NCBI GenBank assembly: GCA_016742075.1
Contig: JACVCL010000001.1
Coordinates: 62,001-126,000 of the forward strand
DNA: 64,000 bases
Reading direction: 5' to 3'
Source: Phycisphaerales bacterium
GTDB lineage: Bacteria > Planctomycetota > Phycisphaerae > Phycisphaerales > UBA1924
Below are positions 27,569-33,673 of the stretch, in pieces; position 1 is the stretch's first letter, and every line of letters starts with the position of its first letter. The notes beneath the pieces were generated by a model. That model saw only the letters and a program-made list of their open reading frames with translations. It was not told where the DNA came from and did no database searches. The translations under genes and the position numbers were made by a program.

Positions 27569-29179
27569 TTACGGACAGGCGGTGCCGAAGGCCACGAGCA
27601 GCGTGGTCAGATCGGCCGCGCCGACCGAGCCGTTGTAGTCGAAGTCGGCACCCGGGACAAAGCCGGGATCACCGCGGGATGACCCGAACGCCCCGAGCAG
27701 CAGCGTCAGGTCGTTGGCCCCCACCGAGCCGTTCTCGTCGATGTCGCCGGGGCAGCCGAGCGAGAACGTGACGGTGCCCGCCGACCACGCCCCGGCGACC
27801 GTCCCGCCGTCGGTGATCTGCGCGTACACGTAGTAGGTGCCCGGGGCGAAGTATGCCGAGTTGATCGCACCGGCGCCCACCGAGCCCGGGATGGCCACCT
27901 GATCGGGCAGCGGGAACTCGTGGCCGTCCAGATCGGGGTGATCGTTCAGGAACAGGCTCACCCACGTGGGGTCGCCGTCGGGGTCCGAAGCGGTCCAGGT
28001 CACGGCGTAGGTTTCGATGCCGTGCCGGCGCACCACGTTGCCCGGCGGCGGAGACAGCACGGCGATCTGCGGCGGCGCCGACGACGCGGGGTCGATCGTC
28101 AGCCGATAGCCGGGGCTCGTCGCGCCGTTGTAGCCGTAGACGCGCACGCCGTACCAGCCGCGTGGCCGTCCGCTCAGCGAGACCGACTCGGTGTTGGTGA
28201 TGCCCTGGCTCGTGCCCAGCACCGCGCCCGACGCCGAGAGCAACTGCAGGTCGAGGTCGCCGCGGGAATGGGTGAAGTCGATCCGGACGAAGTCGGAAGC
28301 ACCCCCGACCCCCGCGTTGTAGAACCGGAAGTAGTCATCGTTCCCGCCCGCGTGGATCGTGAGCGCGTCCCGAGTCCAGAGAGGGCCAACGGGGCCGAGA
28401 TTGGGGCTGTTCGGCAGTCCGACGGCGCGGCCGGCCACGGCGCTCAGCGAGTCGTTGGGCTCGAAGGCGTCGGGCGTGAGCCCGCCGGACGGGTCGGGGA
28501 TCACGAGCCGGATCCGTGCGATGTTGTTGCTCTCATCGGACTCGAGAACCCCATTGTCGGGATCCACTTCCGACTCGAGCCAGTAGGTGCCGGGCGCGAC
28601 CCCAGTGATGTCGATGCTCTGGCCGGCCAGCGTCTTGCCATACACGTCGATCCAGCCGACGCTCAGCCCCTGCGTGGTTGACGAGCAGCTGGAATAGATC
28701 GCCGTGGGCGAGAACCCGGGGAGCGCGCTGTTGAAGACCCCCAGATCGAGGATGCAGAACGAGGTCTTGGCCGACTCCGCCACCACGGGGCCAACGCCGT
28801 CGGTGCCCACCACGGTCCGGAGGCGGTACCTGGACCAGTCCTCGAAGTGGATGTGGTTGTGACCCGGGTGGTACACGAACTTGCCCGCGAGCCGGTCGTA
28901 CCAGCTGTTGTTCGAGCGGAACACGCGCTGGACGACGTCCTGCGTCCCGTCGCCGTTCACCTGCCCGCCGTAGAGGTGCAGGCGCCCGGCCCCGATGTTG
29001 GCGGTGCCGTTGGCCAGCCGAAGCAGCCTGCGTCCCGACTGGGTGATGATGTCGTTGTCGAAGAGGTCGTCAGGGCGCACCACGATGTCGGGCAGCAGGT
29101 CGGTCTGCGCCCGGGCGGCGCCGGGGCCGGCGAGAGCGGAGACGACCACGGCTAAGGCGAGCGGCCGGAAGGGGACCAT
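27569..29179 (-). CDS. Secreted lysyl-oxidase-like protein with CARDB/PPC-like region and C-terminal dockerin-like repeats
   Basis: [20 protein letters not shown] copper motif, [24 protein letters not shown], then [22 protein letters not shown] and [21 protein letters not shown]. Confidence 0.82.
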   Translation of the reverse strand: [536 protein letters not shown]

Positions 29180-29257
29180 CACCACAAGATACCCCCAGTT
29201 CTTGAGGTTCCAAGCCCCGGGGTGGCGGAATGTCGCCGCGGCCGATAAAGTCGGCCC

Positions 29258-30395
29258 ATGCACTTCGAAGCCCACCAGCCCGTGATCGACGAGCTTGAGG
29301 CGCGGATCTTGACCATCCGCGACTCTCTTTAACTACGACGCCAAGGCGTCGGAAAAGGCCTCCCTCGAGGCCCGGATGGGGGAACCGGACTTCTGGAACA
29401 ACGCCGACGCCGCCAAGGCGGTGGTCGGCAAGGTCAAGCAGCTCAAGAGCCAGCTCGAGCCCGTCGCCAGGGCGATGGGACAGATCGAAGACGCCAAGGT
29501 CGCGCTGCAGATGGCCAAAGAGGCCGGCGACAAGGATCTTCTGGCCGAGGCCGACGGGATCCTGTTCTCGCTGAAGGGTCAGATCGAGAAGGTGGAACTG
29601 CTCTCGCTGTTGAGCGGCAAGCACGACCACCGCAACTGCTACGTGACCATCTCGGCCGGCGACGGCGGCACCGAGGCCAACGACTGGTGCGAGATGCTGT
29701 TCCGCATGTACCTGCTGTTCATGGAGAAGAACCACCCGGAGTGGAAGATCGAGGAGGTCGAGAAGAGCTACGGGAGTGAGGTGGGGCTCGACTCGGTGAC
29801 TCTGCACATCCAGGGGCCCAGCGCCTTCGGGTACCTCAAGTGCGAGCGAGGCACGCACCGTCTGGCGCGCGTCTCGCCGTTCAACGCCCAGGGCAAGCGG
29901 CAGACCAGCTTCGCCACCGTCGACGTCACGCCCGAGTTCGAAGAGACCACGGTCGAGATCCCGGATAAGGATCTGGAGATCACCCCGTTCGTGCGGGCCT
30001 CGGGGCCGGGGGGGCAGAACGTGAACAAGGTGGCCTCGGCCGTGCGCGTGGTGCACAAGCCCACGGGCATCATGGTGGTCGCCAGCACCTACCGCGACCA
30101 GCCGCAGAACCGCAAGCAGGCGCTCGCCATCCTTCAGGCGAAGCTCGAGGAGATGGAGGAGCAGCGCCGCAGCGCCGAGATCAAGGCGGCCGCGGGCGGC
30201 GATGTGGACCGCGGATGGGGCACACAGATCCGGTCGTACGTCATCTACGACTCGCGCGTGAAGGACCACCGGACCGGTTTCGAGATCATGGACCCGACCC
30301 GCGTGCTCAACGGCGACATCGAGGGGTTCATCGACGCGGAGCTCAAGCGTCGGCGCCGTGAGCAGGCCGAGGCCGAGGGGGCGAAGAAGGCCTGA
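29258..30395 (+). CDS. prfB: Peptide chain release factor 2, expressed via +1 frameshift: join(29258..29329,29331..30395)
   Basis: Short upstream frame MHFEAHQPVIDELEARILTIRDSL ends at CTT TAA; +1 frame continues NYDAKASEKASLEARMGEPDFWNN; GGQ motif ASGPGGQNVNKVASAVRVVH. Confidence 0.93.
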
Positions 30396-30477: not shown

Positions 30478-33417
30478 TCAGCGGCCGATGAGCATGTTGG
30501 CCGTCTCGCCGACGCGGAGCTGGTTCTCCAGAAGCGTGATGTCGGCCGCGTTGACCACGCCGTTGCCGTCCATGTCGGCCTGGCAGAGGTAGCCGCTCAG
30601 CTGGTTGATCGCGTAGAGGTCCTCGCGGTTGACCACGCCGTTCTGGTCGACGTCGCCGGGGATGCCGCCGATGGTGAGGTCGAAGGTGAGCGTCTTCTGG
30701 CGGAGCACCACGCCGGAGGGCGCCCGCTGGATGACGACGGTGACGTAGTTCACGCCGCGGGGCAGGTTCGTCAGGTTGAAGGTCCACTGGCCGCGGTCGA
30801 AGAAGCTGGCGAGGTTCGAGGGCGAGAGCGAGCCGGCGGGCTGGTTCAGGAACACGTAGACGCCGGTGACAGTGCCGTCGAGGTTGGTGAACATCAGCTG
30901 GCCGTTGCGGCTGGTGCACGTGATGCCGCTGACCTGCATCGAGAGGTCGGGGTCCTGGCGGTCGACGTAGATCACCCGGCGGAAGTCGGTGTAGATCGGA
31001 TTGGCGGCGGCGCTGCGGCCGCGGAACGCGAGGGCCGAGATGTAGTGGTAGCCGTCGGTGAGCGAATCGGTGTTGATGATCTGCTGGTAGTTGCCGCTGT
31101 TGTTGCCGCCGCTGGGCGGGCTGTTGACCGTGGCGAAGTTCTCGCTGCCGGCGAACTCGCCGCTGGTGACGTCGACGGAGCCGTTGCCGTTGAAATCCCG
31201 GAAGCCCTGGTCGATCCGGAAGATCGCGGCGTTGCCGCGGCTGGCGACGTCGGGATTCCCGTTGGCGATGCGGGGCGTGGTCTGCAGGTTGATCGTGAAG
31301 GTCGGACTCTGCACCACGTCGACAGTGTTGATGCGCCGCGCCGCGGGGACCTTGCCGGAATTCGGGTTGGCGTTCACGTCGTCGGCCGGCAGCACGGGGC
31401 CCTGGGCGCGCTGGATCGTCAGGGTGCCCTGCGGGGTGCCTGGCGCGTAGACGATGAAGCCCTTGTAGTGCGTGCGCACCACGCTGCTGTTGTCGATCGA
31501 CGAGTTCCGCGGAATCCGCAGGCGGACCTGGCCGGGGGAGAGCCCGAAGAACGAGTCGCCCACGGTGAGGGTGTTGTCGATCTCGTTCTTGGGGTCGATC
31601 GCCGGATCGTCGGCGTTGCCCGTCACGTCGTAGAGGAACGTGCCGTTGATGAAGCGGGTGGAGACGATGCGCTGGTCGTAGTTGGTCGTGCCGCCCGTCG
31701 AGTTGTGGAACCAGGTGTCGCTGGCGACGAGCACGTTGGACTCGGGGGACCCGGCGTTGCCGTTCCAGCGCTCGAACGTGAGGATGTTCGTCTCCAGGTT
31801 CTTCACGTCCCACTGGCCGCGGCCGAACTGGTTGGCGGCGGTCACCAGGCGCGTCAGCGTCGGGTCCAGGCCCTGCTGGGTGCGGGCGAGGCCGAGCGCC
31901 TCGGGGTTGCCCTCGCGCGGCCAGAAGTTGCCGGGCCCGCGGCCGGGGAAGCTCGCGTACTGACGGGCGTTGTGATAGACGATCACCGGCCCCGGGCGCA
32001 GCAGCAGATAGGCCCACTGAGGCCACGCGGCGTTGGAGAGCGGCGGCAGCGGCGGCGACGACGAGCCGTTGCCGGCCGACCCGTTGTCGTGCGAGAAGAT
32101 GTGGTTCATGCCGATCGAGCCGTTGTTGTCGGCGTCGTCGGCGTTATCCAGATGAGACGACAGCACGCTGTTCCAGGTCGTGCCCGACGGATTGAACACC
32201 TGGTTGCGGATGGTGCCGGCACCGTTGAGGTCCAGCGCGTCGCGGTTGCCGAAGGTCTCGGTGGGGCGGGCCGGGACGTTCTTGCGGACGTAGTAGTTCC
32301 AGTTCTGGTCGTTGCCCAGCACGTTCTCGCCGAAGCTGAAGGGCGTCACCCGCGCTCCCGACGGCGTCACGCGCCGGTTGTACACGATCGAATCCCACGA
32401 GCCGTCCCACCAGTCGGGCGGGATGTGCTTGGCGGCGTCGAGACGGAAACCGTCAACTCGGAACTCCTCCAGCAGCCACTGCGTGGACCGCAGCAGATAG
32501 CCGTTGGCGTTCTCCATCACCGCGTCGCCGGCGCTGGCGGTACCGGTGTTGAAGGGGAACACGCCCGACGGCGAGCCGGTGTTGAAGGGGTACACCGTCA
32601 GCGACGAGGCGGGCGCGCTGAAGGCGCCGAACCCGCAGCAGGCGTTGCGGTTGTAGCCGGGGTTGTTGACGACGGTGGGCGTCAGCGCAAGGTCCGGGTA
32701 GAACCGCGCGTTCGCGGGGTCAACCGTGTTGTAGAGCGTGCCGCCCGGGATGTTCACCGGAGGCGAGTTCGCCGAGGGCTGCACGCCCGTCGGCAGCGCC
32801 GCGTTGACCGGGTTGCGGATCGTGAAATTCTGCGAGTACTGGTTGATATCGATCAGACTGACCAGGTCGCCGTCGAACAGGTTGTAGTTCGCGCTGCCCG
32901 GGTCCTGAGACTGCGTGGTGCCGTCGTGAAAGTCGCCCCAGTTGCCGCCGGCCGACTTGTTGCCCGAGGGGGGAGGGTTGAACCAGAACCCCGGGTACCC
33001 GCCCTGGGCGATGAATCCCGACGAGCCGTCGCGCCCCGAGCAGTGGTTCATCACCAGGTCTACGTACACCAGCCCGTTGGCCCGCCGGAACTGGTCCATG
33101 AGGTACCGGAATCCTCGCTCGGTCCCGTAGAGCGTCGGAGAGGCAGGCGTGCCGAGGTCGAACTTTGAGAACTGGTCGAAGCCCGCCGACGACGGGTCCC
33201 GCGTCTTGTGGATCGGCGGGATCCAGTACGCCCCGTACCCCGCGACGAACGCGTCGGGCATGCGGTACTCGAGCGTATCCCAACCCGCTTCAAACCACTG
33301 CAGGTACACCGGGTTGGCCTGGGCGCCGGCGCCGCCCGCGGCCGCGAGCAGCGCGGCAGCGGAAAGGCCGGCACAAACCGACAGGCGGCGGGCGGCGTCG
33401 AAACGTCGGCTGAGCAT
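30478..33417 (-). CDS. Secreted GH13 alpha-amylase family protein with C-terminal dockerin-like repeats
   Basis: Signal peptide; YVDLVMNHCSG, FRVDGFRLDAAKHIP, FSFGENVLGN, GMNHIFSHDNG; GDVDQNGVVNREDLYAIN and DMDGNGVVNAADITLLE. Confidence 0.9.
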   Translation of the reverse strand: MLSRRFDAARRLSVCAGLSAAALLAAAGGAGAQANPVYLQWFEAGWDTLEYRMPDAFVAGYGAYWIPPIHKTRDPSSAGFDQFSKFDLGTPASPTLYGTERGFRYLMDQFRRANGLVYVDLVMNHCSGRDGSSGFIAQGGYPGFWFNPPPSGNKSAGGNWGDFHDGTTQSQDPGSANYNLFDGDLVSLIDINQYSQNFTIRNPVNAALPTGVQPSANSPPVNIPGGTLYNTVDPANARFYPDLALTPTVVNNPGYNRNACCGFGAFSAPASSLTVYPFNTGSPSGVFPFNTGTASAGDAVMENANGYLLRSTQWLLEEFRVDGFRLDAAKHIPPDWWDGSWDSIVYNRRVTPSGARVTPFSFGENVLGNDQNWNYYVRKNVPARPTETFGNRDALDLNGAGTIRNQVFNPSGTTWNSVLSSHLDNADDADNNGSIGMNHIFSHDNGSAGNGSSSPPLPPLSNAAWPQWAYLLLRPGPVIVYHNARQYASFPGRGPGNFWPREGNPEALGLARTQQGLDPTLTRLVTAANQFGRGQWDVKNLETNILTFERWNGNAGSPESNVLVASDTWFHNSTGGTTNYDQRIVSTRFINGTFLYDVTGNADDPAIDPKNEIDNTLTVGDSFFGLSPGQVRLRIPRNSSIDNSSVVRTHYKGFIVYAPGTPQGTLTIQRAQGPVLPADDVNANPNSGKVPAARRINTVDVVQSPTFTINLQTTPRIANGNPDVASRGNAAIFRIDQGFRDFNGNGSVDVTSGEFAGSENFATVNSPPSGGNNSGNYQQIINTDSLTDGYHYISALAFRGRSAAANPIYTDFRRVIYVDRQDPDLSMQVSGITCTSRNGQLMFTNLDGTVTGVYVFLNQPAGSLSPSNLASFFDRGQWTFNLTNLPRGVNYVTVVIQRAPSGVVLRQKTLTFDLTIGGIPGDVDQNGVVNREDLYAINQLSGYLCQADMDGNGVVNAADITLLENQLRVGETANMLIGR

Positions 33418-33673
33418 CGAACTCTCCCTGTCAGGCGGCCGCGGCCGCGAACCCGGAACCTCGGTGATGCAGATCCAGCGCAGACCCTGCGCCGGCCGGA
33501 ACTCTCCAATCATGCCACAAAGCCGGCGCGAGTGTATCGGTTTACTGCGCTTTCCAAGGGCTTTCTGACGCCAGTATTGGCCGAGAACTCGGTGTAGCGT
33601 TTTACTGGATCAGGCCCACGAGACCGAGAAGCTTGGCGGTAGGCTCCGCCCTCCACCCCGAGGAGTTTCACCC

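Follow-up and report, generated by a model that had tools for sequence, protein, structure and literature searches.

How prfB, the gene for release factor 2 (RF2), could regulate itself without the usual signals is the question raised by a Phycisphaerales bacterium in which we analysed a 64,000-nucleotide stretch of DNA (the window). Frameshifting in prfB is the textbook bacterial case of programmed +1 frameshifting, and the window's gene resembles the E. coli-type arrangement (AGGGGG UAU CUU UGA C) in the gene concerned, a first open reading frame (ORF1) of ~25 codons, the CUU slip codon, a UAU or UCU spacer, the C after the stop, the +1 direction and an internal stop readable by RF2. It differs in that the site has no duplex between a Shine-Dalgarno (SD) sequence and the anti-SD of 16S rRNA, carries a covarying hairpin instead, and uses UAA rather than UGA. 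In an analysis of >12,000 genomes, 1.4% of 8,164 prfB sites had TAA, in a scattered distribution without broad fixation in any clade, and the SD at prfB was said to be conserved almost universally (PMC12421855); the spacer is usually UAU or UCU (PMC13245932).

The prfB gene is split between two frames and lacks an SD

ORF1 comprises 24 codons from the ATG at 29258 (MHFEAHQPVIDELEARILTIRDSL), followed by TAA at 29330-29332, and its start and zero-frame reading are recognisable family-wide. The +1 frame, which runs from AAC 29331 to TGA 30393-30395, scores as RF2 in a profile search (TIGR00020, 390 bits, cut-off 370), and both the SPF anticodon-mimic motif and the GGQ motif are present. From the stop that precedes it in its own frame, located in the hairpin loop, to ATG 29376, the +1 frame contains no ATG, GTG or TTG. 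The preliminary description of this locus as a prfB +1 site with UAA is therefore borne out by the split frames and the RF2 score. As in the broad class of prfB +1 sites, a short zero frame is joined to the RF2 frame at a CUU slip codon, an RF2-readable stop and a C after that stop, and CUU, UCU, the fourth-base C and the length of ORF1 are all as in classical sites (Table 1). The UCU spacer and the CUU shift codon recur across the family (counts in Table 1), yet TCT makes up 3% of Ser codons and CTT 6-8% of Leu codons; among 208 class-level shift sites, 205 have C as the base following the stop. The window's genome also has, beside RF2, an RF1 gene with its PAT motif.

The gene lies between two minus-strand ORFs (27569-29275 and 30478-33513), both of which have C-termini that by eye resemble dockerin-type repeats; the ORF at 30478-33513 resembles an alpha-amylase, again by eye. 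The RF2 profile also has two short, weak matches near its GGQ-domain positions (L003, G000:C217:4754-4918; L004, G000:C9:5909-6157), which are probably ArfB- or PrfH-type rescue factors.

The window has no SD-like AGGGGG 3 nt before CUU, where the E. coli-type site has it, and no UGA as the internal stop. Over the 14-15 nt before CTT, the predicted SD:anti-SD energy is -0.7 kcal/mol at the window site versus -10.7 at the E. coli site, in agreement with the earlier reading that no SD precedes CUU. The missing SD is a property of the message, because the 3' end of 16S rRNA in this genome is canonical (GGAUCACCUCCUUUCU). We also considered GAGG at 29297-29300 as an SD brought near by the hairpin, and rejected it since this codon varies (CAG, AAG, CGG, TCG, ACG) in the order and class.

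Table 1. Features of the prfB frameshift region, in window coordinates
Feature	Position	Strand	Basis
prfB ORF1, zero frame, ATG...CTT then in-frame UAA	29258..29332	+	sequence
Possible outer pair G29299-C29323, past G.A mismatch 29300/29322	29299..29323	+	inferred
Hairpin stem, 5' strand, CGCGGAU	29301..29307	+	MFE and centroid fold; covariation with 3' strand
Hairpin loop, 7 nt, CUUGACC	29308..29314	+	folds; fast-changing third codon positions
Hairpin stem, 3' strand, AUCCGCG	29315..29321	+	folds; covariation; occupies place of E. coli SD
Spacer / E-site codon UCU	29324..29326	+	85/103 family loci
Shift codon CUU, proposed to slip to UUU	29327..29329	+	102/103 family loci
Internal stop UAA, then C	29330..29333	+	sequence and conservation
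RF2 main ORF, +1 frame, AAC TAC GAC GCC AAG ... TGA	29331..30395	+	TIGR00020, SPF, GGQ

A covarying hairpin stands where the SD belongs

The preliminary description saw no evident stimulator at this site. We find otherwise: a covarying 7-bp hairpin, a candidate for that role, stands directly upstream, in the place of the SD. Its stem pairs run from -29/-9 to -23/-15 (offsets from the end of CUU), the stem alone folds at -9.1 kcal/mol, and the window thus has a stable hairpin adjoining the E site of a CUU-stop site. For the window sequence alone, local folding gives modest z-scores (-2.25 and -1.38), and the case for the hairpin therefore rests on comparison, not on one fold. For this comparison we used 111 prfB loci of the window's family, from 163 genomes and 74 genera, together with samples of the order, class and phylum.

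The complete stem is present in 190 of 208 class-level prfB genes that have the shift site, but in 0 of 17 that lack it (Fisher 3e-16, a value that pools related genomes, so that the tree-based tests below weigh more); one of the 17, L153, was judged by eye, with the same result. Among loci with the shift site, the stem is complete in 101/103 of the family, 53/58 in the rest of the order and 36/47 in the rest of the class. When the same peptides were re-encoded by redrawing codons according to RF2 codon usage, a full stem was expected in only 9-10% of cases, versus the 98%, 91% and 77% observed.

The two variable pairs of the stem, -28/-10 (found as CG, GC, GU, AU and UA) and -25/-13 (GC, AU, CG and GU), take first and second place among 1540 column pairs when 200 distinct sites are aligned without gaps. 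In 60 diverse sites, 93.1% of stem cells pair, with 41 two-sided changes; none of 500 shuffles paired as highly, and sliding the stem gave at most 47%. Comparison of independent sister pairs on supported branches yielded 2-3 pairs per test, none contrary and too few for significance by a sign test, and because that test is too weak we turned to a null in which the number of changes per column on the tree is kept and the branches are randomised. The total stem pairing was reached in none of 2000 draws (p=0.0005). Third codon positions changed 6-8 times on the tree in the stem versus 21-34 times in the loop and upstream (21-31 in the loop). Some of the changes are compensatory: in L016, L041 and L073 the stem reads CGCGCAU/AUGCGCG, a silent CGG>CGC being matched by an Ile>Met replacement on the other strand, and a compensatory stem, CCCGGAU/AUCCGGG, occurs in L015 and throughout the class. 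At the level of sequence, the hairpin, its covariation and its loss together with the shift site are established.

Covariation supports the 7-bp core only. The outer GAG:CUC helix of the predicted fold was rejected as an extension, being 63.3% paired versus 63.4% in shuffles. A single outer pair, 29299/29323, to which the covariation support does not extend, is possible and would leave exactly the 3-nt UCU spacer, as between SD and CUU in E. coli; its G (29299) is found in 161/161 family and order loci, and the first two bases of that codon vary outside the family. The loop leucine (29309-29311) is UUG or UUA in 65/65 family loci, never CUN, and UUR accounts for ~4.5% of Leu codons. One locus of the same family (L107, in G030) has GTT-TAA-G at the site and a broken stem pair (CGG/ATG), which points either to decay of the shift site or to an error in the assembly. 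No Rfam family was found at the hairpin, and ~346 kb of the genome held no second copy of a hairpin followed by CTTTRA besides prfB.

UAA prevails in one order, in which nearly all loci are without the SD-like GGG

Aligning relatives, as the preliminary description had proposed, confirmed that CUU-UAA-C is conserved: CTTTAAC occurs in 81/111 family loci and in 36/69 loci in the rest of the order. The remaining family loci comprise 24 CTTTGA, 5 without a shift site and 1 odd GTTTAA, and the rest of the order has 22 CTTTGA and 11 loci without the site, giving 117 UAA and 46 UGA shift sites for the whole order. The 48 loci in the rest of the class include 45 CTTTGA, 2 CTTTAA and 1 without a shift site, and all 43 shift sites recognised in the rest of the phylum are CTTTGA, with 0 CTTTAA. 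Among the matches listed from a DNA pattern scan of named genomes, the cassette occurs almost only in records named Phycisphaerae, Phycisphaerales or Planctomycetota, with a few records carrying other names.

On the RF2 tree the order forms a clade (SH-aLRT 100), and across the tree as a whole the stop has switched between UAA and UGA 10 times or more. An odd second prfB copy from the same order (L145, G399:C252) falls outside the clade on a very long branch; it has a classical GAGGAGGUAU-CUUUGAC site and is likely contamination or transfer. Of the terminal stops in the window's genome, TAA is the least used, ending 21 of 148 called genes (~14%, at ~70% GC) versus 102 for TGA and 25 for TAG, as counted from 346 kb with crude gene calls. 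This rarity speaks against mutational bias as the cause of UAA at the shift site, and selection is only a candidate.

Outside the class, sites have UGA, many with an SD-like AAGGA, AGGGA or GGGGG, and no stem in this register. Since these sites have the stronger SD-like stretch and no stem, SD and hairpin appear to trade off. In the class outside the window's order, the stem CCCGGAU/AUCCGGG itself holds a weak GGG (median -4.1 kcal/mol), which is buried in the 3' strand at 39/45 UGA loci; SD and hairpin may act together where it is kept. Within the window's order the stem is of the GCG/CGC type, nearly all loci lack GGG and UAA is common, with a median SD:anti-SD energy of about -1 for the UAA sites. 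Elsewhere in the class, L115 and L116, the two loci with UAA, have likewise lost GGG and kept the stem by compensation, and their UAA has a separate origin on the tree. These states suggest a succession from SD, to a stem with weak GGG, to a stem without GGG plus UAA. When independent pairs are compared across the tree, UAA and GGG loss are not significantly associated, and this link is weak. Outside the class, L234 (G430) has a 5-bp hairpin, CCCUG/CAGGG, before CUUUGAC, in a different 5' register and with the same 3' end, possibly of independent origin.

A model for hairpin-stimulated frameshifting and its alternatives

We propose, with a probability of about 0.8, that this prfB is autoregulated by +1 frameshifting and that the upstream mRNA hairpin replaces the SD:anti-SD duplex as the stimulator. 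Frameshifting, stimulation by the hairpin, feedback and an input from RF1 are what we infer from the sequences. When UAA occupies the A site of a ribosome positioned on CUU, the mRNA upstream would fold into the 7-bp hairpin on leaving the ribosome, placing its 3' strand where E. coli has the SD:anti-SD duplex, adjoining the E site. The hairpin may loosen E-site or P-site pairing, or pull on the mRNA; tRNA-Leu would then slip from CUU to UUU, AAC would be read next, and RF2 would be made. When release factor is plentiful, UAA would be terminated first and RF2 synthesis would drop. Given their known codon specificities and the presence of both genes, RF1 and RF2 should both be able to terminate at UAA, and the sensor in this clade may thus respond to both.

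The most serious competitor to the hairpin as stimulator, although an unlikely one, is that a bare CUU URA C shifts unaided and that the hairpin is kept for another role, for example to mask a weak SD-like stretch, to pause the ribosome or to stabilise the mRNA near its start. Naeem et al. reportedly found that SD-less prfB sites still shift in some Bacteroidota, and the burial of GGG in most hairpin-bearing class members would suit a hiding role. However, in the window's order there is hardly a GGG left to hide and compensatory changes keep the stem all the same, the stem is lost in 17/17 loci without the shift site, and the place of the stem at the SD site does not vary. It is very improbable that the inverted repeat lacks any role as RNA and simply follows from GC-rich codons encoding a conserved peptide (EARI..IRDSL): the peptide is indeed conserved, so that many columns hardly vary, but codon redraws give the stem in ~10% of cases against 98% seen, the Ile>Met change matches a silent change on the opposite strand, and p is 0.0005 under the tree-aware null. 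We give even less credence to the absence of any frameshift, through sequencing error, a pseudogene or an RF2 start at ATG 29376. The assembly is a MAG-like draft of 250 contigs and that ATG exists, but the same site occurs in well over 100 genomes, several of them in few contigs, with the zero-frame codons and the +1 junction conserved, and a start at 29376 would cut off a conserved N-terminal part of RF2. Conservation in relatives thus contradicts both sequencing error and the downstream start, which the preliminary description had named as its possible undoing.

Whether the stop itself matters is a closer call. There is not far from an even chance that UAA is neutral drift, read by RF2 almost alone and giving the same control as UGA. 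The 10 or more changes of state on the tree fit such drift, as does evidence cited for RF2 dominance at UAA, RF2 being argued to read most UAA in many bacteria (PMC12421855). Against drift, UAA prevails in one order in spite of TAA being the rarest terminal stop, and where UAA arose separately, in L115 and L116, the SD-like GGG was lost as well. Three other explanations were rejected: an intrinsic terminator, as a U-run directly after the stem is absent; transcriptional slippage, as there is only TTT at the site; and a nascent-peptide stimulator alone, which leaves the silent-site conservation unexplained.

Relation to known systems and significance

The occurrence of UAA at prfB sites has been reported before (PMC12421855). 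Those TAA sites share CTTTAA as the internal stop, but here most shift sites of one order have it, together with a hairpin and no SD, and because of this planctomycete group the statements that TAA is broadly fixed in no clade and that the SD is near-universal need an exception. Stimulation by a hairpin is physically plausible, given that an engineered 12-bp hairpin upstream of CUUUGA gave ~60% of the +1 stimulation of the SD in a 70S system, and did so only in the absence of RF2 (PMC6321510). Those hairpins, like the one at prfB, adjoin the E site at the same slip codon and worked on 70S ribosomes in vitro; they are synthetic and longer, whereas the prfB hairpin is natural, conserved and in its native gene. 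A 5' stem-loop also serves translational bypassing in T4 gene 60, but there a coding gap in a phage gene is bypassed with the help of other elements, unlike the single-base shift in a cellular gene at prfB, and a 2016 review stated that mRNA structure 5' of the shift site 'perhaps' stimulates +1 frameshifting (PMC5009743). In the literature accessible without subscription, we found no description of a hairpin at prfB or of prfB in Phycisphaerae; priority is uncertain. We put forward only tentatively, as a reading with rather less than an even chance, that this is the first natural takeover of the SD role by an upstream hairpin in a cellular +1 frameshift, arisen in Phycisphaerae, and that the switch to UAA in one order made RF2 autoregulation sense the summed level of the class-I release factors RF1 and RF2.

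In this lineage an mRNA hairpin has apparently taken the position of an mRNA:rRNA duplex, and living relatives show intermediate states. Two questions thereby become testable: whether a duplex as such, rather than pairing to rRNA, causes the ribosome to shift, and why prfB usually has UGA as its internal stop. For annotation, prfB genes of this kind would be missed by finders based on the SD.
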